DNA of 42,918 nt from Oscillospiraceae bacterium. Its GTDB lineage: Bacteria; Bacillota; Clostridia; Oscillospirales; Oscillospiraceae. A program made the position numbers and the translations under genes. The DNA lies in the NCBI GenBank assembly GCA_009787995.1, contig WQSH01000009.1, positions 1-42,918 of the forward strand, read 5' to 3'. Below the pieces are notes generated by a model, which ran no database searches, had not been told where the DNA came from, and was given only the letters and a program-made list of their open reading frames with translations. This document shows, piece after piece, positions 2,279-27,861 of this stretch (position 1 is the first letter of the stretch; each line of letters begins with the position of its first letter).

Positions 2279-2360
2279 AGTTAGCTTTGGCTAACTAAAT
2301 TTACCCAAGCGAGGTTAGTTGCGACTAATTTTTTTCGCAGCAAAGTTAGCTCAAGCTAAC
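2279..2360. promoter_or_regulatory. Cluster of three TTAG-N6-CTAA palindromic operators
   Basis: AGTTAGCTTTGGCTAACT (2279-2296), TTAGTTGCGACTAA (2315-2328), GTTAGCTCAAGCTAAC (2345-2360), between the -10 and the first gene. Confidence 0.75.
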
Positions 2361-2383
2361 CTGCAATAACCGTTTAGGAGTGA

Positions 2384-3373
2384 TTGAATTTGTTACGCAG
2401 GCAGTGGAAACGCATTACCATCATTGTGATGTTTGTTTTTTTGGCGCTACTGTCACTGGAAATCGGCCCTTTGAGCGATGTTAGCCTCAGCTCATTTATA
2501 TATGGGGATGAGGTTGCACGGCTTGTGTTCCTGCACAGCAGGGTGCCCCGCACTGCCGCCGTCATACTTTCGGCAGCGAGCCTTTCTGTTGCGGGGCTCC
2601 TGATGCAGTCTATCAGCCGCAATAAATTTATGTCGCCGACTACGGCGGGCACTACTGATGCCGCCGCTTTCGGGCTGCTCATTTCGTTTATTTTCCTCGG
2701 GCACAGGTCGGGGGTCGTGCAGGCTTCCTTTGCCTTTGCCTTTGCACTACTCGCCACCATGTTGTTCACCTCGGTAATAAATAAGCTCAAAATCCGCGAG
2801 GTTGTCTATATACCGCTGATTGGTATGATGTATGGCGGGCTTATCGGCGCAATTTCGGCTGCCGTAGCCTTTAGGTTCGAGGCTATGCAGGTTATGCAGG
2901 CGTTTAATTTGGGGAGCTTTGCCCGGCTGGGAAATTTCACCCTTGTTTATATTGTCCTTATCCCGCTGTTCTTTTCGGTGCTCTTTGCCACAAAGTTCAG
3001 CATAATCGGGCTGGGGCAGGATTTTGCGAAAAATTTGGGTGTCAACTACAACAGGGTTGTGTTTTTGGGCTTGATTATCGTTGCGCTTATTAGCGCCTCG
3101 ACCTTTGTCGCTGTCGGCCCGCTGCCGTTTATTGGCCTTATTATCCCGAACATGGCGACTTCGTTTTACGGCGACAACCTCAAGAAGTCAATTTTTGACC
3201 TGATGATATTCGGGGCCAACTTCGTCCTCCTGTGCGATATAGTGAGCCGCTTGGTGATTTTCCCATTCGAGATGAATGTCAGCGTCACCATCAGCGTCGT
3301 CGGCGGGATTGTCTTCATGATTTATCTTATAAGGGGGATGCACAGTGGAAAAAATCGCAAAGCTGCGGCATAA
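2384..3373 (+). CDS. FecCD-family ABC transporter permease (siderophore/iron-chelate import)
   Basis: Polytopic FecCD pattern (RVPRTAAVILSAASLSVAGLLMQSISRNKFMSPTTAG; GPLPFIGLIIPNM). TTG start behind TAGGAG. Confidence 0.88.
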   Translation: MNLLRRQWKRITIIVMFVFLALLSLEIGPLSDVSLSSFIYGDEVARLVFLHSRVPRTAAVILSAASLSVAGLLMQSISRNKFMSPTTAGTTDAAAFGLLISFIFLGHRSGVVQASFAFAFALLATMLFTSVINKLKIREVVYIPLIGMMYGGLIGAISAAVAFRFEAMQVMQAFNLGSFARLGNFTLVYIVLIPLFFSVLFATKFSIIGLGQDFAKNLGVNYNRVVFLGLIIVALISASTFVAVGPLPFIGLIIPNMATSFYGDNLKKSIFDLMIFGANFVLLCDIVSRLVIFPFEMNVSVTISVVGGIVFMIYLIRGMHSGKNRKAAA

Positions 3374-4415
3374 GTTCTTGGAGTTTGCGGGGCAGTCAGG
3401 TTACGCCCCTACCATAAAGCATTCAGGGAGCGGCAAGCGTGCGGTAGTCGTTATAATTATCCTTCTCGTGCTGATTGCGGCGGCGTCCGCCTTGTACATC
3501 TATTCTCGCACATATGCCAAGGCGTTCCGGCTCGGGGTGCCTATGACGCCGCAGGCTTTTGACAGCATATTGTCCCGCACGATACCGCATCTATACGGCA
3601 TGGGAGCCGCAGCGGTCGTCCTTGCTGTCGTGAGCCTTTCGTTTCAGACGATTACGCAGAGCAGGGTGCTGACCCCGTCGATGATTGGTTTCGATTCGGT
3701 TTTTGTAGGGACTCAGACAGTACTTGTGTTCTTCTTTGGCGCACAGCATTTCCTGTTTGCCGACCCTTTCATCAACTACCTCATAACAGCAGGCATCATG
3801 GTCGTGGTTTCTATGCTGATGTTCGGAGCCATTTTGCGCAACCACAGGAACAACATAGTGTTCCTTCTCATGTTTGGTTTGGTTCTGTCCGGGATTGTCG
3901 GGAGCGGGACTAGCTACTTGCAGATTATCATGAACGAGAGCGATTTCTTCCAGGTTGCGGCGGCCACTGCTGTAAATGTAAATAACATGAACGTCGGCAT
4001 CATCAACCTCGCCCTTCCGATAATGGCAGCCGTCGTGGCGCTGACATTGTGGCGGCACAGGCGTTATAACGTGATGACGCTGGGGCCGCAGCAGGCAAAG
4101 GGCTTGGGCGTTGCATATGAAAAGGAGCTAAAGTGGAACCTAATACTGATTGCTGTCGGCATGAGCGTCGCGACAGCCATGATTGGCTCGCTGACCTTCC
4201 TGGGGCTGCTTGCCGTAAATGCTGCGCGCGAGGTACTGAAAACGTACAAGCACCTGCCGCTCTTCATCGGTTCGGCGCTAATGGCGGCTTTAACCTTGAT
4301 ACTTGGGCAGAGCGTGATGGAGCTTCTGCAAGGGGCGATTCCGGTCACGGCGATTATTAACTTGGTGGGCTGCTCATATATTTTCTTTCTGATACTAAAG
4401 GAGAACCGGATATGA
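3345..4415 (+). CDS. Second FecCD-family ABC transporter permease
   Basis: SLSFQTITQSRVLTPSMIGFDSVFVG and GSLTFLGLLAVNAAREVL motifs; overlaps the preceding gene. Confidence 0.87.
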   Translation: MEKIAKLRHKFLEFAGQSGYAPTIKHSGSGKRAVVVIIILLVLIAAASALYIYSRTYAKAFRLGVPMTPQAFDSILSRTIPHLYGMGAAAVVLAVVSLSFQTITQSRVLTPSMIGFDSVFVGTQTVLVFFFGAQHFLFADPFINYLITAGIMVVVSMLMFGAILRNHRNNIVFLLMFGLVLSGIVGSGTSYLQIIMNESDFFQVAAATAVNVNNMNVGIINLALPIMAAVVALTLWRHRRYNVMTLGPQQAKGLGVAYEKELKWNLILIAVGMSVATAMIGSLTFLGLLAVNAAREVLKTYKHLPLFIGSALMAALTLILGQSVMELLQGAIPVTAIINLVGCSYIFFLILKENRI

Positions 4416-5179
4416 TTGAAGTAAGAAGCGTAAGCCAGTCATACAGCCGCGACAAGGAGATACTGAAGGAAGTGGACCTTGTCGTAAGGGAGAGGGAGAT
4501 AACTGCGCTCGTTGGGGCGAATGGGGCAGGGAAGTCAACGCTCCTTGGGGTTATGACGAACCTTCTGCCCGCAAAAAAGGGCGTTGTGATGCTAGATGGT
4601 GTGGATATACGCAAAATCAAAACAAATGAAGTCGCAAAAAAAATTGCTTTCCTGAAGCAAACGCAGCAACTCAGCATACGGATAACTGTCAAGGACCTCG
4701 TAGAGTTCGGTAGATTCCCGCATTGCGGCGGCAGGCTCAGGGACGAGGACAGGGAAAAGGTTGAAGAAGCTATTTACTATATGAAGCTCGAAGACCTGCA
4801 GGAGAGTTATTTGGACGAGATTTCCGGAGGGCAGAGGCAGCGGGCATTCATAGCCATGATTTTGGCTCAGGACACGCCATATATTTTCCTTGACGAGCCG
4901 CTAAACAATCTGGACATCAAGTATTCGGTCGAAATGATGAAGATTGTCACAAAATTGGTCGAAGACCTCGGCAAAACTATTGTCGTGGTTCTGCATGACA
5001 TAAATTTTGCAGCAGCCTATGCGAGCCACATAGTAGCGATGAAGGATGGTCAGGTAATAAAAGAGGGAAGCCCGAAGGAGGTGATTACGCCGAGTGTATT
5101 AAACCCCGTGTTTGACCACGATTTCCACATAGTTGACCACGATGGCAGAAGCGTCTGCCTTTATTATGACCATGAGTAG
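4412..5179 (+). CDS. ABC transporter ATP-binding protein (FepC/YclP-like)
   Basis: Walker A GANGAGKST, signature ISGGQRQR, Walker B IFLDEPLNNLD. Confidence 0.92.
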   Translation: MIEVRSVSQSYSRDKEILKEVDLVVREREITALVGANGAGKSTLLGVMTNLLPAKKGVVMLDGVDIRKIKTNEVAKKIAFLKQTQQLSIRITVKDLVEFGRFPHCGGRLRDEDREKVEEAIYYMKLEDLQESYLDEISGGQRQRAFIAMILAQDTPYIFLDEPLNNLDIKYSVEMMKIVTKLVEDLGKTIVVVLHDINFAAAYASHIVAMKDGQVIKEGSPKEVITPSVLNPVFDHDFHIVDHDGRSVCLYYDHE

Positions 5180-5212
5180 AAAAATAAAAGTAAAACAAAA
5201 GGAGAAAGAAAA

Positions 5213-6364
5213 ATGAAAAAAGCGATTTTAACTCTAGCATTAGCAGCGATGATGATTTTAGCCCTCGCAGCGTGTGGAGGCACGCAGCCGGTAGTTGTGA
5301 GTCCCGGATCGCCGCCCGCAGCCGGCCAGCCGGCAGAGACGGGTGCACAGCCCACTGCGGCCTACGATGAAGAAGAGTACGAAGAGGAATATGTCCCAGA
5401 AGGGCCTGTTTATGTGACAATTACTGACTTTAACGACAATGTCGTTCAAGTAAGGCAAAACCCGACCACCGTGGCAATTTATGACCAAGGCATCCTGGAC
5501 ATGCTCTATTCAGTGGGATTTGAAAGGACGGGCATAGAGAGGCTTATTGTCCCTTCTCCCGACACCATGCCAGACGTTCTAAGCTGGTTTAGGGACGATG
5601 GTGGGGAAGTCACAATCGTCAACGGCGGCACGCTCTTTTACGTGGACTGGGACGTGCTTGACCTTATGGTGCCGGAACTTGTCATACTCGGTGCCCGCTC
5701 GTTTGGCATGAACGCCGCCGGCGACCGCTTGGCCGCTGAGGATGTCGACCAGTTCAGGGCTGATACGGAAGCGAGATACTCCGAGACTTCTTTTATAAGG
5801 CTGACGATTAATGCGCGCAATTCGGACTTGCTCAATGACATGAGGAACAATGCATATGCGCTTGCCCAGATTTTCCCTGCAATCGGCGACGACCTCATGG
5901 AGGAAATCGCAAGCATCGAAAGAGAGATGGCGGCGATAGCCGAGGCGACGTCAAACAGCGGCCTTAGCACCGTATTCGTTATGATGACCACCCCGACGAC
6001 ATTCTCAGTGTTTTTGGAAAACAGCCGTTTTGACATGATGTATGAGGAGTTCGGCTTCATCCCGCTGGAAATGGATTTGGAACTATGGACTGACCAGCAC
6101 GGATTTGATGCACAGTCTGAGTTTCTGCTTGAGCAAAACCCTGATGTAATCTTCCTGCTAGACAGGACTGAGCCCGCCACGGGGCTGGGCGCAGCTACCG
6201 AGAATTTCATGAACGACCCAATAATCGCAAGAACAAGCGCCGCAGTTAATGGGCATATCTACAGCGGCCTTCCGATGGCAGAGTGGTATACCGTCGTTGG
6301 CGGCATCCAGTCGGCGTGGCGGATGATAGAGGACGTAAACCGTTTTGTCAGCAGCATTAGCTAG
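5213..6364 (+). CDS. Siderophore/iron-chelate substrate-binding lipoprotein (YclQ/CeuE-like)
   Basis: Lipobox ILALAACGG; VAIYDQGILDMLYSVGFE...PELVILGARS periplasmic-binding fold; last gene of the importer operon. Confidence 0.85.
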   Translation: MKKAILTLALAAMMILALAACGGTQPVVVSPGSPPAAGQPAETGAQPTAAYDEEEYEEEYVPEGPVYVTITDFNDNVVQVRQNPTTVAIYDQGILDMLYSVGFERTGIERLIVPSPDTMPDVLSWFRDDGGEVTIVNGGTLFYVDWDVLDLMVPELVILGARSFGMNAAGDRLAAEDVDQFRADTEARYSETSFIRLTINARNSDLLNDMRNNAYALAQIFPAIGDDLMEEIASIEREMAAIAEATSNSGLSTVFVMMTTPTTFSVFLENSRFDMMYEEFGFIPLEMDLELWTDQHGFDAQSEFLLEQNPDVIFLLDRTEPATGLGAATENFMNDPIIARTSAAVNGHIYSGLPMAEWYTVVGGIQSAWRMIEDVNRFVSSIS

Positions 6365-6478: not shown

Positions 6479-7432
6479 TTAAAACTCTGCGCTCCTTAAA
6501 AATTTTCGCACACCGTCGACATTAAACCCTCTGCCTGTCTCAGTTGCTGACGCCGTATCTCGCGGACTTACGCCGTATTCGGCGTACAATTGATTCACAC
6601 CTGCTAAGAGTGGCATCTTCATTGGCTCGTGCACACACATCGACTTGCTCGGGTTTGTGACGAGCCTCGTAACTGCCGCAATTTTCGTAAGCTCCAATTC
6701 AGACAACGATTCTGTCCCCTCAAACGCAGTTCCTTTCACACCCACTCGCCCCATGATCGCCATGATGTTTACGCCGTATTCCCTAGCTCGTATCATCTCA
6801 CGTGCGATTTCATCATACGTGTGTTCGCGCCCGATAGGCTCGACGCAATAGTACAACTCAAGTCCTGCGGATTTTATTGCGTCAAGCGTTTTGAGCCTTG
6901 TCGATTGGGGTATATCCGTATCCTCACCCTCGCGCAGGCGCAGTACATGGTACGCACCGGAAAACCCTGCGGACTTTAACCTCGCAGCATATACTTCATC
7001 AAAATCGCCGATATTTGCGACAAACTGCACACTTGGCGGCACACATTCTCTGACGTCTTTGCCAATCCGTAGGAATTCCTCTTTGTCAAAGTCGTCGGTC
7101 GTCATCAAAAACAGTGCGTCAATCCCTTGTGCCACAACATCATGCGCTTCGGCAGCGACTTGTTCGGCACTCTTCGCAAATTGCGCGTCAACCACAAAAC
7201 TGTCCTGCGCAAGCGAACAGAATTTGCAATTGCGCTCACATGGAGCAGCGTTTATACCGATTTGCGCAAAAACGTAACCTTCCTTGCGGTATTGCTCGCG
7301 CGATAAGGCGTTTGCCTTTGATATCAGCGTATAAAACTCTGCGGATGTGTTGCTGATATTCAGCAACTCGACTGCGTCTTCCTGTGACAGTTCCGCACCG
7401 TCACTGGCTTTTTCCCAGATTTTTTCAAGCAT
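6479..7432 (-). CDS. Radical SAM protein, BioB/HydE-like
   Basis: CX3CX2C motif CERNCKFC; FVANIGDFDEVYAARLKSAGFSGAYHVLRLREGEDT; TIM-barrel-like BioB layout. Confidence 0.8.
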   Translation of the reverse strand: MLEKIWEKASDGAELSQEDAVELLNISNTSAEFYTLISKANALSREQYRKEGYVFAQIGINAAPCERNCKFCSLAQDSFVVDAQFAKSAEQVAAEAHDVVAQGIDALFLMTTDDFDKEEFLRIGKDVRECVPPSVQFVANIGDFDEVYAARLKSAGFSGAYHVLRLREGEDTDIPQSTRLKTLDAIKSAGLELYYCVEPIGREHTYDEIAREMIRAREYGVNIMAIMGRVGVKGTAFEGTESLSELELTKIAAVTRLVTNPSKSMCVHEPMKMPLLAGVNQLYAEYGVSPRDTASATETGRGFNVDGVRKFLRSAEF

Positions 7433-7499: not shown

Positions 7500-8705
7500 C
7501 TATTTGCGGCTATCTGTTTTTGAAAACCTTTCATCTTTCAAAAATAAAATTAAAATCAGTGCTGCAATCAGCGACACAGCGAATCCAAAAGCAAATGGCG
7601 CAGCGGCACTGAATGCATCCCACAAAACCCCTGCCAAAACATTGGCAGGCAGCAATGCGACTCCGGCGACCGCAGATTTCAGTCCCAGCATGGTACCTTT
7701 TAGCTCAGAAGGTGCAATCTCAGCTACAAAAGCGCGTTCTGCTCCAGAAATCATGGCTGTGTGCGCGCCAAACAGCAAAAACATCCCGATTAAAAACGGT
7801 TGGCTTGCGGCAAATGCAAATCCTAAATATACAGCCGAAAACATAATATATCCCGATACCAGCAGTGTTTTTCTGCCGACTCTATCGCTCAGTTTGCCTA
7901 ACGGCAACGCCAACATCGAAGCCGACGCCGTAAATGCGAAAAACAGAAGAATCACCGAGGCATCATCAAATCCTATGGATTGCGCCCTCAAAAGTAAAAA
8001 AACATTTGAGGAGTTTCCAAGGCTAAACAGCAGCACGACAAGCAGATACAACTTCAATCGCCGATCTGTTTTTTTAAAACTTGCGAAGAAAGGAAAGCGC
8101 TTTTTTGATTGCAATGGCTGGTCAGTTTTCCGTTCTTTTACAAAAATGAACATGCACAGCCCCATGATGGCGGGGATAGAAGATATGAGGAAAATGCGCC
8201 TAAAATCCTCTACGCCGCCAATAAGCAAAAAGTACACTATCAAAATCCCAAGGGCGGATCCGGCTTTGTCCAACATCTTTTGCAAGCCAAAAGATGTTCC
8301 CAGTGATTTGCTCCCTGCGCTTTCAGCAATGAGCATATCTCTCGGGGTTGTTCTGATGCCTTTGCCGAAGCGGTCAACCACTTTGGCAAGCAGCACACTA
8401 ACCCATGACCCGGCGGCAACCAATAAGATTTTGTAAAGCACCCCCGTCGAATAGCCGGCAAAAGCTAAGGCTTTCTTTTTTTGAAACCTATCCGATATGA
8501 GGCCGCTGAAAACTTTTAGAAGGTCCGCCAAACTTTCGACAACACCTTCTATAACACCAATCAATGCAGGAGTTACACCAAACACCGCAGTCAAATAGAG
8601 CGGCACAAGAGGATATACCATTTTTGTGCTTAAGTCAGTAAAAAAACTAACTAATCCGAGATATAGGACATTTTTGTTTTTCATTCCATTAGCGTTTGTG
8701 CTCAA
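7500..8705 (-). CDS. MFS transporter
   Basis: About 400 aa, 12-TM-like; RFGKGIRTTPRDMLIAES, GKLSDRVGRKTLLVSGYI MFS loop motifs. Confidence 0.85.
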   Translation of the reverse strand: MSTNANGMKNKNVLYLGLVSFFTDLSTKMVYPLVPLYLTAVFGVTPALIGVIEGVVESLADLLKVFSGLISDRFQKKKALAFAGYSTGVLYKILLVAAGSWVSVLLAKVVDRFGKGIRTTPRDMLIAESAGSKSLGTSFGLQKMLDKAGSALGILIVYFLLIGGVEDFRRIFLISSIPAIMGLCMFIFVKERKTDQPLQSKKRFPFFASFKKTDRRLKLYLLVVLLFSLGNSSNVFLLLRAQSIGFDDASVILLFFAFTASASMLALPLGKLSDRVGRKTLLVSGYIMFSAVYLGFAFAASQPFLIGMFLLFGAHTAMISGAERAFVAEIAPSELKGTMLGLKSAVAGVALLPANVLAGVLWDAFSAAAPFAFGFAVSLIAALILILFLKDERFSKTDSRK

Positions 8706-9027: not shown

Positions 9028-10272
9028 CTATTTGTTTGTGCTGGTCACTGGTCTTGCCATAAATCTCTCTACCAGTTCCAGCAGCATATCCGCCCCGCGT
9101 TCGCCCATGATTGGCAAATGGGTTGCTACTTGCGGGTGTTTCGAGAATGGAAAACTGACACAGACGCCCATATTGTCTTTTGGAGCCACGTGCATAGACA
9201 CATCGTCAGCCAGCAACAGATGGTTATTTATACTTTTTAAGAACATCAGCCTTTCCTTTTCAGTTTCAAAGTAAGTTATGCCTTCGGCCTTGTGCGTCAC
9301 ATCTTTTAAACCGTGGCTGCAAATCATGTTGACGTGCGTGATGCCAGCTTCTTTTAGGAATGCGGAAATGCCTCGCAACAAATCGTAGTCACCCACAATA
9401 GTGGCATTGAATTGGCGTATGCCTCCCATCATGCCCGGCATAAGGTTTTGCCTTGACTCTTGGTCTTTTTGTGCCAGGGTTTCTTCCACAATCTCGTTTA
9501 TGTCCACCCCCAAAGCCACGCCGATTTCTTTCAGCCATGATAATGTTCCGCTGTATCCATATGGCGATCCGTAAACAAAAGGAGTTCCAAATCTATCCTT
9601 TAAAATTTCAGCGCATGGGATGGCCTCAGTTCTTAATGCCACATTTAGTGATGCGCCGCTCATTTGCTGTATCTCTTTTACAGGCGTCTCAAGCCCTAAG
9701 CACACGCCGACACGCAAACCAAAGGCACGGTTGAACAAATCTTTAAGCTCCCACACATCAGAGGTTATTCGATAGCTGCCGGCGGATGCCCCTAGGATAT
9801 TGATTGTCTGCTGTTGTTGCGCACCGTCCACAGGAAGTTGGGAAACGATAGTTTTATATGCTTCACACAGGCCTGTTGCATAGTCTCCCCGCAGACCGCC
9901 CTCACCAACCGAAATGACGTGTGCAGACACTTTTTCCTGTATATGTTTGCAAACGCCATGTATATCTGTGCCGATAACGGATGTAACGCCGGATTCCATA
10001 ACGAAAATAACTTTTGGCTTGAAGCTGGCGTCTAACTCGACAATAGCGTTTTCCAAACGGCTAACGTCGCCCATCACCACATCATCTTCGCTGATGTGCG
10101 TAGTAAACAGCCTGTTTTCATTAGATAGTCCCATGGAGCCAAAAAGCCCCATGCTGTAATGGGTAGTCCCTGCCGGACCATATTCCAAAACTATGGCGTC
10201 CTTTACGCTCATAAGTGTCCACATGACTGCCATGCGGTGCGATGGCGCCGGTAAAAAACGATATAAGCTCAT
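9028..10272 (-). CDS. NifK-like (nitrogenase component 1-type) subunit lacking P-cluster cysteines
   Basis: Component-1-like layout (APSHRM..., YGPAGTTHYS, MESGVTSVIGTDI, NATIVGDYDLLRGISAFLKEAGI). Adjacent to NifD-like and NifH-like genes. Confidence 0.82.
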   Translation of the reverse strand: MSLYRFLPAPSHRMAVMWTLMSVKDAIVLEYGPAGTTHYSMGLFGSMGLSNENRLFTTHISEDDVVMGDVSRLENAIVELDASFKPKVIFVMESGVTSVIGTDIHGVCKHIQEKVSAHVISVGEGGLRGDYATGLCEAYKTIVSQLPVDGAQQQQTINILGASAGSYRITSDVWELKDLFNRAFGLRVGVCLGLETPVKEIQQMSGASLNVALRTEAIPCAEILKDRFGTPFVYGSPYGYSGTLSWLKEIGVALGVDINEIVEETLAQKDQESRQNLMPGMMGGIRQFNATIVGDYDLLRGISAFLKEAGITHVNMICSHGLKDVTHKAEGITYFETEKERLMFLKSINNHLLLADDVSMHVAPKDNMGVCVSFPFSKHPQVATHLPIMGERGADMLLELVERFMARPVTSTNK

Positions 10273-11564
10273 TAACTTGCCCTCTCTTTCTCAAGTTCCT
10301 TTGCCTCAGCAGCAGCACGAGTTAGCTCGCTCAATACAACTTGAGTCACCTCGAAGCCGAGCATTGCGGACGCCTGGTCGGTACGCACCAGCGAAATTCC
10401 TTTTTGCCGCAAGCGCAGGGCATATTCATGCCCCAAATACAAATGCGGTTTCATTTCATCATACACATATTGCAGCGGAGCTATATTAGCAGATTTAACT
10501 ACATAGGGATCGCTATTTTCCAGTATGTAGTCTAAATATTCATGTGGCTTTTCAGGCAACTCCACTGTTTGGATTAGCTGAGGAATCATGCCCATGCTCA
10601 CCATAAATGCGTTAAATTCGTAGGTGGGCAGGGGAGTGTTGCCATAGATGTACCGTACATTTTTAAGGCTTGGTTTTGCGTCGCCGACTGTCTCTACGGC
10701 CTGCTTGTGCAAATCTTCAACTTCACTTGGCAGGCTTGCTTCCAAGTAGCCGAACAACTCAGTATAGGCTTTGAAGATATCCGCTGGTGCGGCAAAACGT
10801 TCAAAACGCACATATGGTGTGCCGAAACTCTCCTTCATGCCTTTTGCAAGCTCCAGAGCGGTTGCATCAACTACTATGTTTACCTTTGCGGAAGCAGCAG
10901 TTTCGATTTGCGAAACTGAGCAGCCGCCCGGCAGAGCCATGCCAACCTCACACCCTGCCTTGGACAGCACCCGAAATAGTTCCGTAGAACTAAAACTGCC
11001 AAAACGCTGCCCCAAAACGTTAATGCCATTGCCTTTTGGCATGTCTTTCATCATGTGCAGGCATGCCGTGACCGCATTTGCAATGCCGGGGATATGGTTT
11101 TCAGATTTGAAATGCTCTGTATGCACGGGAGCAACATGGATGCCGTATTGCTTGCTGAAAGTTTCTGCCATTGCATCTATATCATCGCCAATAATTTCGC
11201 CGAGGCAGGTGCTTATCAAAAATACGGCCTTTGGCGTATATTCTGACATCAGCTCTGCGAAGGCTTCTTCAATTTTTTTGTGGCTGCCAAAGGCTACGTC
11301 GTGGTAATTCATCACCACAGAAAAACATGGGCTGTCCATGCCGCCAAACATGTTGTTCATGGTAGTGGATTTTGTATAATAAGTACATTCTTCTGTTCCC
11401 ACAACCATCATGCAAGCATCCTTAATGCTGCGAACAGCCAGCATCGCCCCCATAAGAGGGCAATGAGGCCCAGGAAAAATAGAATATGTCAACTGCCGTA
11501 TATCTTTTGCGCGTTCAACGTCTCGCAGTTTTTTCATTTGCGAGATTAACTCTTTCCCAATCAT
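10272..11564 (-). CDS. NifD-like (nitrogenase component 1-type) subunit with three conserved Cys
   Basis: GPHCPLMGA, GTEECTYYTK, STCLGEIIGDDID match the three cluster-ligand positions of NifD/E/BchN-type proteins. Start MIGKEL with AGAAGGAAT RBS. Confidence 0.87.
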   Translation of the reverse strand: MIGKELISQMKKLRDVERAKDIRQLTYSIFPGPHCPLMGAMLAVRSIKDACMMVVGTEECTYYTKSTTMNNMFGGMDSPCFSVVMNYHDVAFGSHKKIEEAFAELMSEYTPKAVFLISTCLGEIIGDDIDAMAETFSKQYGIHVAPVHTEHFKSENHIPGIANAVTACLHMMKDMPKGNGINVLGQRFGSFSSTELFRVLSKAGCEVGMALPGGCSVSQIETAASAKVNIVVDATALELAKGMKESFGTPYVRFERFAAPADIFKAYTELFGYLEASLPSEVEDLHKQAVETVGDAKPSLKNVRYIYGNTPLPTYEFNAFMVSMGMIPQLIQTVELPEKPHEYLDYILENSDPYVVKSANIAPLQYVYDEMKPHLYLGHEYALRLRQKGISLVRTDQASAMLGFEVTQVVLSELTRAAAEAKELEKERAS

Positions 11565-11589
11565 AAAAATAATTCCTTCTTTCTTTTTA

Positions 11590-12378
11590 TCACGATATAG
11601 TAGGGGCGAACAGCTCATCGTATACAATTATAGGCCTGCCCCCAACATCAACTACTTTTCCGGTTACTCCCCATACGGCTTTGAGCACATCGGGAGTGAT
11701 TACTTCAGAGGGCGTGCCTTCGGCATATTTTTTGCCTTCTTTCATGGCGATAATACGGTCGCTCACTTCCAATGCATGACCGAGGTCGTGCAAAACCATC
11801 ACAACGCCAATGCCTGTTTCACGGTTTAGCCTTTGCACAAGACGCATAGTCTCATATTGGTGCGCCACATCCAAAAACGTAGTCGGCTCATCGAGAAATA
11901 GTATTTCCGGTTGCTGCGCCAACACCGTTGCAATCCACACCCGCTGCCGTTCGCCTCCGGAGATTTGGAAAATGGACTTATCTCGCATTTCAAAAACTCC
12001 GGTGGCGTTCATAGCCCAGTCAATAACTCGCCTATCTTCTTCGCTTAACCCGGACAGCATTTTTTGGTGTGGCATCCGCCCATAGCTAACCAGCTCGCGC
12101 ACGCGAAAATCCGCCGGGGCGGCATGTACTTGCGGCAAAACGCCAATACACCGTGACAGAGCTTTTGGACGGTACTCTTTCAGCAGTTTGCCGCCCAAGT
12201 ACACCGTGCCTTTTTTGTGTGGGATTAGGCGGGTGATAGCCTTTAGCACCGTGGATTTGCCCGAACCGTTTGGCCCTACTATTGTTGTAATCTCCTTTTT
12301 GTTAATGCGTATATCCATTCCATGCACGACCGTGCGCATGTCATAGGCAATGTCTATTGCCTGTGCCTTAAGTTCCAC
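11590..12378 (-). CDS. ABC transporter ATP-binding protein (FhuC/FepC/BtuD-like)
   Basis: Walker A GPNGSGKST, signature ISGGERQR, Walker B ILFLDEPTTFLD. Confidence 0.92.
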   Translation of the reverse strand: MELKAQAIDIAYDMRTVVHGMDIRINKKEITTIVGPNGSGKSTVLKAITRLIPHKKGTVYLGGKLLKEYRPKALSRCIGVLPQVHAAPADFRVRELVSYGRMPHQKMLSGLSEEDRRVIDWAMNATGVFEMRDKSIFQISGGERQRVWIATVLAQQPEILFLDEPTTFLDVAHQYETMRLVQRLNRETGIGVVMVLHDLGHALEVSDRIIAMKEGKKYAEGTPSEVITPDVLKAVWGVTGKVVDVGGRPIIVYDELFAPTIS

Positions 12379-13450
12379 TAAACCTACCTCGCTTTCTAAG
12401 CATGTACAAAAATGCAGGACCTCCGATAACAGCCATAACTATACCCACAGGGATTTCCATGCCGGGGACAATGCTTCGGCCTACGGTATCCGCAAACAGC
12501 AAAACTGCCGCTCCGAGAAGCATGCTGGTTGGCAGCATAACACGATAATCCGAACCTACCAGCATGCGGGCTACACGAGGCACGACAAGCCCCACAAAAC
12601 CAATCAATCCCACAACTGACACTGTTGCGGCTGCCAAAAATGCAGATACAGCCGATAGCACAATGCGATTAAGATTCACTCTTACTCCCAAATTTTTGCA
12701 CATTTCGTCGCCCAGCTGCAAGGCGTTTGCGCTTTTAATACAAAACAGCGATGCGCCAAGCCCGATGATGCAGTACACAACTACAGTTTGTACATGAACC
12801 CAAGACCGTCCGGATAAGTTTCCGTTCATGAATGCCAGTACACTTGCCAGATTGTCACTATACATCAGCTGCAACAGGCCTGTGTAGCCCCCAAGCACTG
12901 CATTTATCGCCACGCCCGTGAGAATTAGCCGGATGGGGTCGACCCCGCCCTTCCACGCCATGCTGTATATCAACAAGCATGCCAGACCCGCACCGATAAA
13001 AGCAAAAAGTGGAACAGAAAGCGCAAGCGCAGGAAAGAGCAGCAGTATTGTCGTTGCTGCGGTTGCAGCCCCGGCGGAGACCCCGATAATACCGGGATCT
13101 GCCAAGGGGTTTCTCATTACAGCTTGCAATAATGAGCCCGATGTCGCCAGGGCTGCACCGAGTAGCATCGCCAGCAACACCCTCGGCAGGCGCAAGTTGA
13201 GCACAATAACGCTAACAGTGCCCTCCTCCAGGCCAAACAGAGCCCTCAGAACAAGCGCTAGGGGATAGCGGACGCTTCCTATAGCAATTGCCGTTAGCAT
13301 CAGGAACACCAAGACAGCTACTAACACTGTCCACACGAGGCCTGCGCGCAACAAGCTAATGCCTTCCTTTCTCGCCTTGCGCTCGGCTCGCTTATTTTTT
13401 AACACCTCAATCACTCGCTTGTTCTCCCAATAGGCCATCGACAATCTCAA
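12368..13450 (-). CDS. FecCD-family ABC transporter permease
   Basis: ATSGSLLQAVMRNPLADPGIIGVSAGA signature; GLIGFVGLVVPRVARMLVG. Start probably internal (MAYWENKR). Confidence 0.9.
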   Translation of the reverse strand: MRLSMAYWENKRVIEVLKNKRAERKARKEGISLLRAGLVWTVLVAVLVFLMLTAIAIGSVRYPLALVLRALFGLEEGTVSVIVLNLRLPRVLLAMLLGAALATSGSLLQAVMRNPLADPGIIGVSAGAATAATTILLLFPALALSVPLFAFIGAGLACLLIYSMAWKGGVDPIRLILTGVAINAVLGGYTGLLQLMYSDNLASVLAFMNGNLSGRSWVHVQTVVVYCIIGLGASLFCIKSANALQLGDEMCKNLGVRVNLNRIVLSAVSAFLAAATVSVVGLIGFVGLVVPRVARMLVGSDYRVMLPTSMLLGAAVLLFADTVGRSIVPGMEIPVGIVMAVIGGPAFLYMLRKRGRFSGT

Positions 13451-14468
13451 TTAATTCATTAAAAATGTCCACAATGGCAATGCCCGCACTGCTAACAAAC
13501 CGCATGGGCAAATAGATTATTCTGCCATCGTAAATCGCCGGGATGCTGTCCCAATAAGACTGATTGTCGGCAAAGCTGGCTTCCATAAAGGCCTGATGCT
13601 CTTCGGCAGTGGGGGCAGAGCCTACTGCGAAAACCCAATCAGGGTCGTAGTACAGTGCCTGCTCGAAATCTATCATAACCAATGAACCCGGCATTTCTGA
13701 CACATTTGTAAACCCAAGCATCTCAAGCATGCTGCCCAAAAGCGCCATGCTTGTTTGAATATGCGAGTTTCCTTGCAAGACCATCACAGTCATGCCAGCG
13801 GCTCTTTCTTGCACGACGGCAAAATAGTTTTCCAAATCATCAAAGGCCTCTTCCATAGCCTGGCCGGCATCAGCATTTTCCTCATTGCCAAAAGCCTCTA
13901 TGAAGTAGGATGTTTGCATACGTATTGAATCATAAGGCACAACATGGCCTGCCATAACAAAATACACAGGTATCCCTAGCATTTGCAGGGTTGCGCCATG
14001 TGTTTCCGCAAGAGTCATTGGCATAACGACCAAATCCGGATCAAGAGAAACCACCATCTCGATGTCAAAATCATCCGCCATTGCAGATGGAAGCCTCGGG
14101 ACATCTAAGGTGTCGGGATATGTAATCAATCCAGTAGTTGGCACAGCCACGATTCCTACCCCCAGATTGTATAGTGTCATTACCGCACCCACAGACATAA
14201 TAGCGACGCGGTTTGGCACAATATCCAGAATAAGCGGATCCGTGAAGCCCATGGATCGCATATCGGCGGGATATTCAAGGACAAATGGTTCGGGCTCAGG
14301 CTCGGGCTCGGGTTCGAGCGCGGGTTCCGGTGACGGCGCCGGGTCCAGTGCCGGTTGCGCCGTTTGCGGTTGTGTTGCAGGAGTTGAGGCGCCGCAAGCC
14401 ACTAGCATGGAAATAGCGACGATTCCAACCACCATTAACGATACTGTTTTTTCTATTGTTTTTTTCAC
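13407..14468 (-). CDS. ABC transporter substrate-binding lipoprotein (iron/heme/B12-type)
   Basis: Lipobox SMLVACGAS, Pro/Glu linker EPEPEPEPEP, PNRVAIMSVGAVMTLYNLGVGIVAVP...DPDLVVMP TroA-like fold. Confidence 0.85.
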   Translation of the reverse strand: MKKTIEKTVSLMVVGIVAISMLVACGASTPATQPQTAQPALDPAPSPEPALEPEPEPEPEPFVLEYPADMRSMGFTDPLILDIVPNRVAIMSVGAVMTLYNLGVGIVAVPTTGLITYPDTLDVPRLPSAMADDFDIEMVVSLDPDLVVMPMTLAETHGATLQMLGIPVYFVMAGHVVPYDSIRMQTSYFIEAFGNEENADAGQAMEEAFDDLENYFAVVQERAAGMTVMVLQGNSHIQTSMALLGSMLEMLGFTNVSEMPGSLVMIDFEQALYYDPDWVFAVGSAPTAEEHQAFMEASFADNQSYWDSIPAIYDGRIIYLPMRFVSSAGIAIVDIFNELIEIVDGLLGEQASD

Positions 14469-14539
14469 TGCTTTTCTCCTTATAATATAATTTACTGCGC
14501 TTTTGGCTCCGATTGGTGAAGAGATCCCCCACCAATCTG

Positions 14540-15325
14540 TCAGACAACAGATCTTTGGATATCGCCTGAAGTTTGGTTAATTATTTTTTCTGCCAAGTCA
14601 AGGTAAATTTGGTGCATGGGCGAGGTTTCAAGTACCTCAAACACTGTTCCGCCTTTTGATTCAGACGCCTGTATATCAGGACAGCGTGGAATGTACTGCA
14701 TAATTTCCGTGCCGATTTCCGGCAGGGCAGCTTTTACGATGTTCTCTTCATCCTCAATATTCTTTGCATTGAGGATAAGTCCGCTGAGCCTGGCATAACT
14801 GCGGCTGCCAAAATTTCGTATCGCCGCTCCAATGTTGCCGGCGGCATACAGGCTCATCATCTCGCCCGAAGATACAATATACACATCCTTTGCGTATCCG
14901 TTTCTGATGGGCATGGCAAAGCCTCCGCAAACAACGTCGCCCAGCACATCATAAATCACTACATCCGGCCTGAGTTCTTCAAAAACATTTAATGTTTCCA
15001 GCTGCTCAAAAGCCGATATTATTCCGCGCCCCGCACAGCCAACGCCGGGGGTAGGTCCGCCGGATTCTACACATAAGATACCCTTGTATCCCGTAAATAC
15101 AATGTCGTCCAGTGTCAGCTCATCGCCTTTTTCCTTTATCTGATCAAGGACGGTGGTGATATTTTCCCCTCCCATCAAGTTCTTTACTGAATCTGCCTTT
15201 GGGTCACAGCCCATTTGCATTACCCGCAAGCCTTTATGCGCCAAAGCCGCTGATAGGTTGCAAGTGGTGGTACTCTTGCCTATTCCTCCTTTGCCATAAA
15301 TTGCTATTTTTCGCATGTTGCGCAA
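14540..15325 (-). CDS. NifH-like nitrogenase iron protein family reductase
   Basis: YGKGGIGKSTTTCNLSAAL P-loop; both cluster cysteines retained: ESGGPTPGVGCAGRG and VIYDVLGDVVCGGFAMPIR. Confidence 0.93.
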   Translation of the reverse strand: MRNMRKIAIYGKGGIGKSTTTCNLSAALAHKGLRVMQMGCDPKADSVKNLMGGENITTVLDQIKEKGDELTLDDIVFTGYKGILCVESGGPTPGVGCAGRGIISAFEQLETLNVFEELRPDVVIYDVLGDVVCGGFAMPIRNGYAKDVYIVSSGEMMSLYAAGNIGAAIRNFGSRSYARLSGLILNAKNIEDEENIVKAALPEIGTEIMQYIPRCPDIQASESKGGTVFEVLETSPMHQIYLDLAEKIINQTSGDIQRSVV

Positions 15326-15429: not shown

Positions 15430-15467
15430 TTAGCGATGACTAACCGCCCGGGTTAGGCAAGACTAAC
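15430..15467. promoter_or_regulatory. Two TTAG-N6-CTAA palindromic operators in the divergent nifH-like/AraC intergenic region
   Basis: TTAGCGATGACTAA (15430-15443) and GTTAGGCAAGACTAAC (15452-15467). Confidence 0.72.
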
Positions 15468-15483
15468 TTTTAGGAAGCATATC

Positions 15484-15573
15484 ATGGATTTGCCGGGATT
15501 ACATTTAATATCTTGCGGCGAATCTCTGATTTCTTGTGGAAGGATGGTATATCGCTATGTTTATGGACTCTGA
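15484..15573 (+). CDS. Possible leader peptide / upstream ORF (29 aa: MDLPGLHLISCGESLISCGRMVYRYVYGL)
   Basis: ATG 6 nt after AGGAAG; stop overlaps the start region of the AraC ORF in another frame. May instead be the frame-disrupted N-terminus of the AraC gene. Confidence 0.35.
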   Translation: MDLPGLHLISCGESLISCGRMVYRYVYGL

Positions 15574-16258
15574 AGTGATTGAGAAATTGTACGATGTGAG
15601 AGGGATTTGCAATGCCGTTATAGGGCGGGACGTGGATTCGGCCATTCGGTTGTTTGATGAGCAGCTGTCTTTTTTGGCAATCCGTTCTGCCTGTGACATA
15701 GAACTGATGAGTGTGTTTCTAAATTCTTTGGATAGGGGCATATATAATCACATTCTGCAGGCTTTTGGAAATGCCTTGAGCATTTGCTCCCTGAACAAAT
15801 GCTGCCACGAAAATTTTCAAACCATAGGCAGCTGCAGATGCTATGGCTGTTTTAGCTGCGCCGGAAAAGAGATAATTGAAAACTATTTCAAAATTGTGCC
15901 CTTCCAAAGCTGCAAAGGTAATGCATATATCGAGCAGGCGAAGGAATACATCGGAAATAATCTGTCCGAGCCGCTTACATTAAAAGGCGTTGCAGAGAAG
16001 GTTTTCCTCAGCGATACGTACCTTTCACACCTTTTTAGAGAGCTGGCCGGGACTACATTTTCAAGTTTTGTGTTGCAGCAGCGCATTGACAAAGCAAAAA
16101 AACTGCTAGAAGCTACAGAACTGTCAGTTTCCGAAATTGCGGGACAGTGCGGGTTTTCCCAGTCGAATTACTTTTCAACGGTGTTTAAGAAGAGTACAGC
16201 CCATACCCCAAGGGAGTATAGGCTGGCTTTTCGCAAGCACGCAAGCAATAGGCATTGA
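15536..16258 (+). CDS. AraC-family transcriptional regulator with Cys-rich region
   Basis: C-terminal AraC double HTH (LSEPLTLKGVAEKVFLSDTYLSHLFRE...ELSVSEIAGQCGFSQSNYFSTVFKKSTAHTPREYR); central CSLNKCC...SCRCYGCFSC. Start uncertain (GTG 15536, ATG 15557 or 15563). Confidence 0.85.
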   Translation: MEGWYIAMFMDSEVIEKLYDVRGICNAVIGRDVDSAIRLFDEQLSFLAIRSACDIELMSVFLNSLDRGIYNHILQAFGNALSICSLNKCCHENFQTIGSCRCYGCFSCAGKEIIENYFKIVPFQSCKGNAYIEQAKEYIGNNLSEPLTLKGVAEKVFLSDTYLSHLFRELAGTTFSSFVLQQRIDKAKKLLEATELSVSEIAGQCGFSQSNYFSTVFKKSTAHTPREYRLAFRKHASNRH

Positions 16259-18290: not shown

Positions 18291-18319
18291 TTGACACTCG
18301 AGTTAGGCTGTGCTAACCT
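18291..18319 (+). promoter_or_regulatory. Predicted promoter overlapped by a TTAG-N6-CTAA operator
   Basis: TTGACA-17 nt-TAACCT with GTTAGGCTGTGCTAAC (18302-18317) across spacer and -10. Confidence 0.5.
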
Positions 18320-18345
18320 ATGAGTAAAGTTAGTTGACGCTAACT
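18302..18345. promoter_or_regulatory. Two TTAG-N6-CTAA operators upstream of DUF2325/exporter genes
   Basis: GTTAGGCTGTGCTAAC (18302-18317) and AGTTAGTTGACGCTAACT (18328-18345). Confidence 0.72.
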
Positions 18346-18361
18346 GCAAGGAGGGATTTAT

Positions 18362-18655
18362 GTGAGCATTGTTATTGTCGGCGGCAATGAGCGGATGGCT
18401 TGTCAATATAAAGCTATTTGCAAAAGCCATGGGTGCAAGGCAAAGGTTTATACCAACGAGCGCGGCTCTCTTAAAAGCAAAGTTGGTTGCCCTGACCTTT
18501 TGATTATACTGATGAGCACTGTGTCACATTCAATGGCGACTACCGCAATGGAAAGCGCAAAGCGCAATAATGTGGACATTGCACATCTGCAGTCAAGCAG
18601 CGCAACTGCGCTGAATAATTTTCTCAAAGATTATCAGGCGCAAATTAGGCTATAG
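18362..18655 (+). CDS. DUF2325 domain-containing protein
   Basis: MSIVIVGGNERMACQYKAICKSHGCKAKVYT...PDLLIILMSTVSHSMATTAMESAKRNN pattern; GTG start after AAGGAGGG. Confidence 0.75.
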   Translation: MSIVIVGGNERMACQYKAICKSHGCKAKVYTNERGSLKSKVGCPDLLIILMSTVSHSMATTAMESAKRNNVDIAHLQSSSATALNNFLKDYQAQIRL

Positions 18656-23559: not shown

Positions 23560-26500
23560 CTACTCGGCAATAGTCTGGTCAATCAACGCTGCGGCATCTT
23601 CAAGCTCGCCACATAGCAGGTGATCGGCAATGCTGCTGAGCAGCGCCTTTGTTTGCTTTGAACAGGACTTTGGGTCGATTGCTTCAAATGCGTTGTCCGC
23701 AGCGTCTATGTCAAAATCGTCGCAGGCTTTCTTAATATCCAGCAGTTGGCTGCGAAGGAGCGATGGGTTTTCATCTTCCTCAGGAGAATCCTGTATGCTC
23801 CTTTTCTCAAGATCCCTGACGACCTCATGCAGTAAATCCAAAAACCTCGGCGTCTCCTCTCGAATAACCGCCATGTCGCCACCACGGCCTGCTGTCTCCA
23901 AAACACCCGCAGTGTCCGAAAGGGCTAATCTGCCAATATTGAATAAAGCGCTTTTCATGGCGTGGGTTTGAATCGTGTACGACTGAAGCGCTTTCTCATC
24001 TAGCTCCTGACGTAGGAAAAGCGGGTTAATTATGTCGATGGACGTTCGGGCGTCGCGCAAAAACGAGTCCACAAGCATGTCGGTCAGAGTGTCCTCATTG
24101 ACATTGCCTATGTCCAAATTATCGGCCTTTGCACGCCTTGCCCTTTCTATGACTTCCTGAGGCTGCTTATCGCGAATAAAACGCAAAAGGTATTTGTCAA
24201 GCTGGTTTAAGTCGACGGGCTTTGATATGAATCCCGAAAAGCCGTTGTCCATAAACATTTGCACTGAGTCGCTCAATGCGTTTGCGGTCAAGGCGACAAT
24301 GGGGTGGTCGTATCCCATGCCCTGAATTATCCTTGTTGCTTCGATGCCGTCCATTTCCGGCATCATGTGGTCCATGAAGATGATGTCGTATACTTCGCCT
24401 TCTTCAATTTTTTCAATAGCCAATTCACCGCTTTCCGCAGTATCGACCGCAAGCTTGTATGGGAGCAAGAACCCCTTTGCCACGTGCAGGTTGGACTCCA
24501 CGTCGTCTACAACTAGCACGCGGCCGTAAGGCATTGGTTCGCAGTTTAGTTTGGATATCTTTTTCATGGATTTTTGGGTGTCATCTAGGTTTTGCATTTT
24601 CTCAACAACCGTCGGCCCCAGGACATCCTGCCCTTTCCTGCGTTGGGGCAGGTGCACCGTAAACGTGCTGCCCTTGCCCAACTCGCTCTCTACAAAAATC
24701 TCGCCGCCCATCATCTTAATCAGTTTGTGTGAAATCACCAGGCCCAACCCGCTACCTTCAATCGCTCGGTTGTCCTTCAAGTTAAATCTGGTGAACTCAT
24801 CACCAAACAGGCTGCCTAGCTGCTCCTCGGACATGCCTTGCCCCATATCGTTGACAGTCGCAACCAAAGTAAGCTCATCGCCCTCGCCTATATCCTCGAC
24901 AACAAAAGACAAAGAGACAACGCCCTCCAAGGTGTATTTAAAAGCATTAGAGATGATGTTGTTTAGTACTTGCTTTACGCGTATTTCATCACCTATCAAA
25001 AATTCCGGAAGGTTCTCATCCACGCTCAACTTGAATTCTATCCTTTTGCTGCCGATGTAGATGAGGTTTAATTGTACGGTATCTATAATCATACTTGCCG
25101 TTTCGTATGGGGCAGGCAGGATTTCCATCTTGCCCGCTTCGACCTTGGAAAGGTCAAGGATATCATTGATGATGGAAAGCAGCAGCCTGGATGAATTGTA
25201 AATGCGAAAGAAAGCCTCTTCGGTTTCGGAAGTGTGGGTGTCTTTTTGAAGCTGCATCTCGGCTATGCCTAAAACGGAGTTCATGGGAGTGCGTATTTCA
25301 TGGCTCATATTAGAAAGGAATTTGGTCTTTGCATTGTTTGCGGCCTGCTCTCTGCTAAGTGATTCCTCAAGCTTGGTGAGCATTTCCTTCTGCTCGCTCA
25401 AATCCCACACATAGGCCATTACAGCATTTCTCCCACCGAGATTTACGCACTCCAAATACACTTGGCAGGGGATAGGTTTTCCTTCCAAGGTGCAGTGCAT
25501 CCACTCACATTCAATCTTGCCTTTTTCAAAGGCCAAGTCCAAAATTTGAGTTACTTTTTCGCGAGTTGGAGTGCCGTCCGGCTGGTACTCGGGGCAAAGG
25601 TCGAAAAAGCGGTCGATATAATATTGCTTGTCAGACAGCCCGAACAGGGTGGCGGCGGCTTGGTTTGCCTCGAGGACTTTATGGTTTTCGTCATAGATTG
25701 CACAAAGTATCGGTGAGGCGTTTAGCATAGCCTTGAGTTTTTGTTGCGCATTTTTTTCAATTTCCTCGAGTTTGTAGCTTTCCCGCAAATCTCGCGCATA
25801 AACAATCGCTACGTACTTGTCGCCAAGCTTCACCCTCTCGAGATAGACTTCGACGGGTATGGTCTCTCCGTCAGAGGATATGTGTATCCATTCGGGCAAG
25901 TACCCCTTGCCTGTTTCAAGCGCATCCAATATTGCCCCTCTAGCCTTCTCCCTCGAAGGTTTTCCGTCGCGCTGATACTCAGGGGAGAGCTCGAAAAATC
26001 TGTCAATGTATTCCTGCTTATTACGTAATTTAAGAATATTGGCAGCCTCTTCGTTGACCTCAATGATATTGAAGTTTTCATCGAAAATTGCGCAAAGCAT
26101 CGGCGAGGCGTCGAGCATGGCCTTGAGTCTTTGCTCCATCATAATGGTATTTTCGGCAAGCGTGTGCTTTACAAAATACACGCAATTGTTGTGGTGGTTT
26201 ATGCCAAGCGCAATGGCTTCCGCCATATCCATACATGATGGGTAACCACAGGCAGAGCAGTCGACATGCTTGTCGTTTTCGCTGAGCTTAAGAAGTTTTT
26301 CCCTGAAAATGGCCTCTATTTCGGCTTCGCTGATAGCATTTTTGTGGAGGGGTTCGGCTTTTTCGTACTCGCACATAAAATCATCAAGCCGCAGATTTTC
26401 AAACCGTTTGTTGAGGCGTTCAAAGCGGTCTGCCGGGGTGAGTGGCATATTTTCGCCTTGATTTCCCATCGATTCAAATTTTAGCTTGCGCAGCGAAGAG

Positions 26501-27498: not shown

Positions 27499-27861
27499 CA
27501 CAAAGCACCCCCACACAGTTTGACCCTTTTTGAGCCTATTAAGACGCACCGATAGATTGCCTACCCCACGCGCACATAACATAAGCACCAAAAATCAAAT
27601 CCCACCCAAGCCCAGCTACTTTAACATATTATTTGCCACATATCAAGCGGCTCTGGCAGCTTTAACTTTTTATTTTCACTATATCAGGTTGATTTGTTCA
27701 ATTTGTTCATATCTTATGGATATTATTTATAAAAAAAAGCGTATGTTTTGGTAATAACAGCTTAATTATGTATAAAATATACCGCAATATACGTATTATG
27801 CTTGATAGTGAATACTGTATGTACTAAAATACTACTCCGAGGGATAGAAGGGAGCAGTGAT

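Follow-up and report, generated by a model that had tools for sequence, protein, structure and literature searches.

To our knowledge, the nitrogenase superfamily beyond nitrogen fixation is mostly uncharacterised, and the characterised members we know of that lack the iron-molybdenum cofactor (FeMo-co), namely DPOR, COR and CfbCD, all act on tetrapyrroles. Among the closest described systems are the NifEN-like pairs, with three cysteines in one subunit and none in the other, that Dos Santos et al. found in 2012 adjoining NifH and an ATP-binding cassette (ABC) ATPase; these authors reported co-location with ABC transporters and proposed that the transport of metal serves cofactor assembly (PMC3464626). 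The co-location of nitrogenase-like genes with ABC transporter genes, having been reported then, is not new. Here we analyse a six-gene operon in a 42,918-nucleotide stretch of DNA from an Oscillospiraceae bacterium (contig WQSH01000009.1; the whole stretch is referred to as the window), in which the genes of a nitrogenase-like enzyme are interleaved with those of an importer. We propose, with a probability of roughly one half, that this operon is an iron-starvation module by which the cell, in the absence of oxygen, uses an iron chelate that it imports, heme being the most probable one.

A check of the open reading frames (ORFs) of the window showed that the operon lies on the minus strand and runs from 15325 to 9028 in the following order (SBP, substrate-binding protein):

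14540 to 15325, minus strand: NifH-like Fe protein, the ATP-driven electron donor (Fer4_NifH, 321 bits, above cut-off)
13407 to 14468, minus strand: SBP, the class III substrate-binding lipoprotein of the importer (Peripla_BP_2, 42 bits, above cut-off)
12368 to 13450, minus strand: FecCD-family permease (FecCD, 298 bits, above cut-off)
11590 to 12378, minus strand: importer ATPase of the FecE/HmuV/BtuD type (ABC_tran, 104 bits, above cut-off)
10272 to 11627, minus strand: NifD-like subunit (Oxidored_nitro, 209 bits, above cut-off)
9028 to 10272, minus strand: NifK-like subunit, without cluster cysteines (Oxidored_nitro, 217 bits, above cut-off)

The six genes, their order and their strand were thus as an earlier reading of the sequence alone (the sequence-only reading) had given them, with every ORF at its coordinates and every Pfam family above its cut-off. 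The close packing of the genes also held: neighbours overlap or nearly abut, the stop codon of the NifD-like gene and the start codon of the NifK-like gene sharing base 10272, with the caveat that some of the overlaps hinge on TTG starts. (Note that the start of the NifH-like gene is more likely an ATG near 15316.) The NifH-like translation contains the P-loop GKGGIGKST and both cluster cysteines (in CAGRG and VVCGG), and the presence of a Fer4_NifH protein together with two PF00148 subunits places the enzyme in the nitrogenase superfamily, in agreement with AlphaFold2 and Foldseek. A radical S-adenosylmethionine (SAM) gene (6479-7432) and an MFS gene (7500-8705) lie downstream; these were not counted as parts of the operon because no homologue of either clustered in the neighbourhoods of relatives.

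When all six proteins were scored with hidden Markov models (HMMs), none reached an NCBIfam equivalog cut-off. The NifH-like protein reached 331 bits with the nifH model (cut-off 394) and the same score with CfbC (cut-off 402), the best equivalog model for the NifD-like and NifK-like subunits was nifE (108 and 127 bits; cut-off 505), and TIGR03282, with which we tested for CfbD, gave at most 47 bits (cut-off 268). For the importer ATPase the top-ranked NCBIfam models were FecE and a heme ATPase.

Subunit phylogeny had been set beforehand as a possible refutation of the idea that the enzyme differs from the known ones, and it placed the subunits outside every characterised clade included in the tree. 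In a maximum-likelihood tree of NifDKEN, BchNBYZ and CfbD, one MarDK pair (the MarD reference being identified by its 468 bits to the Mar structure 9fmg), NifH-NifE fusions and NifD-like relatives, the NifD-like subunit fell in an importer-linked clade of 27 rows (support 99/97) that excludes Nif, BchNB/BchYZ, CfbD and Mar. Within this clade the operon's family forms a subclade of its own (94/94); the clade also holds a siderophore-linked group (L055, L056, L059 and a Sporomusa plasmid, with L038) and a Treponema/Methanospirillum group that likewise adjoins FecCD genes. The counterpart group on the NifK side was weaker (65/81). Mar grouped with the Nif side of the tree, and the exact place of the Bch and CfbD rows is unsure because of their long branches. 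Structure comparison was less discriminating, and by itself fails to separate NifEN, NifK and BchB: the AlphaFold model of the NifK-like subunit (mean predicted confidence, pLDDT, 91.4) had its highest template-modelling score among the listed PDB matches with BchB of DPOR (0.83), the model of the NifD-like subunit (pLDDT 90.6) was about equally close to several superfamily members, and the structure search found no solved structure that belongs to the operon's family.

Several lines of evidence indicate that the operon enzyme is not a nitrogenase and cannot fix nitrogen. First, residues C56, C81 and C141 of the NifD-like subunit, which align with the three P-cluster ligands of NifD, are invariant in 53 relatives, and the NifK-like relatives have no cluster cysteines at all (E30, P33 and T37 are invariant), so that in place of the six cysteines of a P cluster, three per subunit, there are three in D and none in K. 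Second, the position of the FeMo-co ligand Cys275 is occupied by Asp in the NifD-like protein and by Asp or Asn at the aligned column across the family. Third, NifB was not found in the window's genome (G000) or in four relatives (G822-G825), the positive control G044 having NifB; in the four relatives the only PF00148 pair is the D/K pair of the operon. The cofactor is likely to be one [4Fe-4S] cluster per D/K pair, with an empty substrate cavity as in DPOR. It had been claimed that nifE, nifN and nifB were absent; for NifB this is true genome-wide, although contig 93 of the same genome carries, unlinked to the operon, a NifH-NifE-like fusion and a NifN-like gene. This pair (L040:2616-6150; the fusion is of 759 amino acids) has kin in L039 and L041, and all three form a clade separate from the operon's D/K pair in the tree.

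The comparison with individual systems is as follows. The pairs CLM_0808/0809 of Clostridium botulinum and Clos_0313/0314 of Alkaliphilus oremlandii, like the operon pair, have three cysteines in the E/D-like subunit and none in the N/K-like subunit and adjoin NifH and an ABC ATPase, and from their description they would belong to the same clade; the 2012 account, however, is without the heme genes, the iron regulation or the conserved six-gene order described here for the operon. What is new is the finding of heme genes in the clusters of relatives and of a palindrome that precedes the operon, a siderophore importer and a DtxR gene. DPOR (BchLNB) and COR (BchXYZ) also combine an Fe protein with a D/K-type pair that has a single [4Fe-4S] cluster and no FeMo-co, but the operon subunits lie outside their clade, Thr36 of the NifK-like protein stands in the alignment column of the BchB ligand Asp36, and the window has no bacteriochlorophyll genes. 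CfbCD offers a precedent for nitrogenase-like tetrapyrrole reduction, and the CfbC and NifH models give the NifH-like protein equal scores; CfbD, however, is a homodimer that lies elsewhere in the tree, whereas the operon encodes two distinct subunits, and the window has no F430 genes. MarHDK and IsrHDK (the methylthio-alkane and isethionate reductases) are likewise nitrogenase-like HDK systems, Isr lying beside transporters (PMC11423573), but they come with a radical-SAM protein and act on C-S substrates, MarD falls on the NifD side of the tree rather than in the operon's clade, and the operon has no MarB-type gene. HMM cut-offs, tree, cysteines and genome content together led us to reject membership in nitrogenase, DPOR/COR, CfbCD and Mar alike. 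Finally, the radical-SAM route of HmuW/HmuF and the de-chelatase HmuS, known anaerobic routes for heme that rely on other enzymes (PMC10404700, PMC12583661), resemble the operon in combining a heme import operon with release of iron without O2, HmuWF having a flavodoxin partner (PMC10404700); the catalytic unit of the operon is a nitrogenase-type reductase instead, and the operon contains no HmuW- or HmuS-like gene.

A one-genome-per-species scan with a NifD-like profile yielded 79 named loci. (Certain further loci duplicate named ones, as in L045/L068 and L046/L093, which leaves about 83 distinct loci.) The carriers are anaerobes of gut and sediment: Lachnospiraceae and other Clostridia (many of them metagenome-assembled genomes), Epulopiscium, Phascolarctobacterium, Clostridioides, Paraclostridium, Tissierella, Alkaliphilus and Sarcina, and outside these groups two spirochaetes and one Methanospirillum. 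In the whole-genome search, relatives at 51-55% identity shared the gene order, identity elsewhere being about 40%. The exact order NifH-SBP-FecCD-ATPase-NifD-NifK was found in 47 of the 73 assessable relatives from other genomes, and a FecCD gene lay within 6 kb of the NifD-like gene in 70 of the 73, so that the linkage to the importer, whose absence had also been set beforehand as a possible refutation, held. Thus, the operon is a conserved unit and its arrangement does not reflect chance. The three loci without FecCD linkage are L090 (a short contig), L138 (Chakrabartyella, in which D is broken) and L131 (Vallitalea); in the last, NifHDK adjoin a formate/nitrite transporter and a SufBD-type gene, which may point to a different use.

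The regulatory sites connect the operon to iron. The features concerned are:

15430 to 15443, no strand: DtxR-type palindrome TTAGCGATGACTAA, upstream of the operon; the pattern also occurs upstream of NifH in relatives
15452 to 15467, no strand: DtxR-type palindrome GTTAGGCAAGACTAAC, one of just 7 such sites genome-wide (2.42 Mb)
2281 to 6364, plus strand: second iron importer (two FecCD-type permeases, an ATPase and an SstD-type siderophore SBP) behind three palindromes
18303 to 18655, plus strand: DUF2325 gene (18362-18655) behind two palindromes
15536 to 16258, plus strand: AraC-family regulator, divergent from the operon, with a Cys-rich N-terminal half (HTH_18, 79.6 bits)

Of 78 loci, 25 have the pattern TTAG-N6-CTAA upstream of NifH, where 0.65 would be expected, and the G and C that flank it are conserved too, even though they lie outside the searched pattern. 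The extended form, GTTAG-N6-CTAAC, matches part of the classical DtxR box. It has 7 sites in the whole genome (the reversed control has 1), five of which lie in the window, ahead of the operon, the siderophore-type importer (2384) and the DUF2325 gene (18362), and another precedes a DtxR-family gene. With 0.48 TTAG-N6-CTAA sites expected in its 43 kb and seven present (at 2281-2359, 15430-15467 and 18303-18343), the window looks like an iron-regulated island, and the second importer is predicted to belong to the same regulon while lying outside the reductase operon. In other lineages a Fur box replaces the palindrome (8 of 78 loci; 0.5 expected). Judged from these sites, that is, the palindrome in 25 and the Fur box in 8 of the 78 loci and the occurrences before the importer and the DtxR gene, the operon is very likely iron-repressed. 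The AraC regulator, whose homologue adjoins the operon in about 40 loci, is unlikely to be the owner of the palindrome because these sites also lie ahead of other iron genes and the DtxR gene. (Note that the N-terminal half of this regulator and of several homologues has a conserved CC motif, possibly for sensing metal or redox state, and that DUF2325 is near the operon in some relatives too, e.g. L109:3521-3799.)

Among the genes that recur beside the operon, found by clustering of ORFs across loci and named by HMM, are those of different heme proteins in different lineages. NEAT domains (71-150 bits) lie beside it in L051, L103, L104, L108, L109 and L112, in L103 together with a sortase; HugZ/HutZ-like genes directly follow NifK in six loci of Clostridium and Peptostreptococcaceae (L116, L120, L125, L126, L129 and L136) and are near it in L086; and the haem-binding protein ChaN follows NifK in L076 and L077. 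Among 199 genomes of the window's phylum, just 4 have any NEAT protein and 1 has a HugZ-like protein, the chance of at least two such neighbours being about 7e-5 for NEAT and about 4e-6 for HugZ. In a separate set of 61 relatives of a Phascolarctobacterium genome, ChaN was present in 9 and the NifD-like gene in 5, and in both genomes that carry the two they lie within about 2 kb of each other. Moreover, IsdE was the top model for SBPs of relatives (247, 243 and 190 bits; next best at most 82), all below the equivalog cut-off of 299, the match being strong in L103 and L051. Compared with solved structures, the L103 SBP matched Lmo2184 (154 bits) and IsdE (138 bits) ahead of a next match at 59, and it keeps the residues that align with Met78 and His229 of IsdE; we take these two residues to be the heme ligands of IsdE, and Lmo2184 to be a heme SBP. 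A flavodoxin of the Flavodoxin_3 family, present in the cluster of 30 loci, may act as electron donor of the Fe protein or, by analogy with Fusobacterium HmuF (PMC10404700), handle heme or its products.

The sequence-only reading, in which the imported chelate would be the reductase's substrate, is partly supported: these neighbours and the regulatory sites speak for an iron chelate as the cargo, heme being the best candidate. A number of observations weigh against heme. The SBP of the window has IsdE as its best NCBIfam model at only 59 bits (cut-off 299) and keeps the Met region and not the equivalent of His229; there is no heme marker beside the operon in the window itself; a BilS-like flavodoxin, searched for with the sequence of a relative, was not found in the window's genome; heme markers accompany only about 15 of the roughly 83 distinct loci; and siderophore genes accompany the neighbouring clade. 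In addition, the TonB receptors of Phascolarctobacterium are without the usual His of heme receptors, and B12 models score almost as well for them, so that with this motif test negative we set TonB receptors aside as weak proof of heme. Since no heme marker accompanies the operon in the window, whose SBP matches IsdE only weakly, and since the sister clade is siderophore-linked, an iron chelate is the better supported cargo: for the window locus we regard it as highly probable, and heme as having even or slightly better than even odds.

For an iron-starvation module of this kind we infer the cargo, substrate, product and cluster type as follows. With iron plentiful, an iron-loaded DtxR-type repressor would silence the operon; upon iron shortage the SBP-FecCD-ATPase importer would take the chelate up. 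A flavodoxin or ferredoxin would reduce the NifH-like protein, which would hydrolyse ATP and pass electrons singly to one [4Fe-4S] cluster held by the three cysteines of the NifD-like subunit, the NifK-like side contributing a non-cysteine ligand or an open site. The electrons would then reach heme in a cavity equivalent to the FeMo-co site of nitrogenase or the pigment site of DPOR. Reduction of the macrocycle would break its aromaticity and, since the reduced ring would bind iron less, Fe(II) would be freed. O2-dependent heme oxygenases are unable to work in anaerobic gut Firmicutes; if the scheme is correct, it would give the gut microbiome a novel means of exploiting heme iron, by an O2-free route that differs from those of heme oxygenase, of ring opening by radical-SAM enzymes and of de-chelation by HmuS. 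ATP-driven heme reduction, should heme be the substrate, would be new chemistry for the nitrogenase fold. In the open literature that we searched, no paper connected nitrogenase-like enzymes with the use of heme. That the enzyme is a nitrogenase-type, ATP-driven heme reductase, widespread in the Firmicutes of the gut and belonging to a larger clade that serves imported iron chelates, is a more tentative proposal, to which we give somewhat less than even odds. The analysis provides a large, gut-abundant clade with a substrate class that can be tested and a physiological trigger.

The alternative that survives best, though we consider it unlikely for this operon, is that the cargo is a ferric siderophore, the iron of which is reduced and freed at a very low potential provided by the enzyme. 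Loci of the neighbouring clade (L055, L056, L059 and the Sporomusa plasmid, L163) have NifHDK together with two FecCD genes and mostly an ATPase. In L163 there is also a TonB siderophore receptor, and an esterase (PF00756) of a type found with catechol siderophores is present in both L163 and L059. A siderophore-type importer behind the same palindrome is present in the window, too. In the operon's own family, however, the genes that recur nearby encode heme proteins and no siderophore esterase, and the SBPs are IsdE-like rather than siderophore-like. The sister loci in L055, L056, L059 and L163 (a plasmid of Sporomusa termitida) are themselves candidate ferric-siderophore reductases and, judged from their siderophore-gene neighbours, nitrogenase-type electron transfer may help to release iron from more than one chelate.

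It is improbable that the importer supplies metal for assembly of the NifDK-like protein's own cofactor, as Dos Santos et al. proposed (PMC3464626). NifE being the best-scoring equivalog model for both subunits would fit such a role, but the four relatives have neither NifB nor further NifDKEN genes, the FeMo-co cysteine is replaced by Asp/Asn, and the iron control and heme genes fit nutrition better. A little more doubtful still is an importer and reductase for a corrinoid or another tetrapyrrole, for example in cobamide salvage. FecCD importers carry B12, the TonB receptor of L076 (Phascolarctobacterium faecium) scores best with a B12 model, and in this locus a cobalamin riboswitch (L076:1-133) precedes a separate BtuB-like gene upstream of the operon; a cobalamin riboswitch directly precedes the operon neither in the window nor in eight other loci, however, the regulatory sites of the family being of the DtxR/Fur kind instead, and BtuF models fit the SBPs far less well than IsdE does. 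The overall NifHDK architecture would suggest a true dinitrogenase or maturase remnant, but this is already contradicted by the lack of NifB, NifEN and FeMo-co ligands and by a position outside the Nif clade.

Elsewhere in the window, positions 23560-27591 encode a protein of 1343 amino acids in which, on inspection by eye, a ferredoxin and an iron-hydrogenase-like domain appear to be fused to PAS, histidine kinase and receiver domains, and which is possibly a sensor of H2 or redox state.

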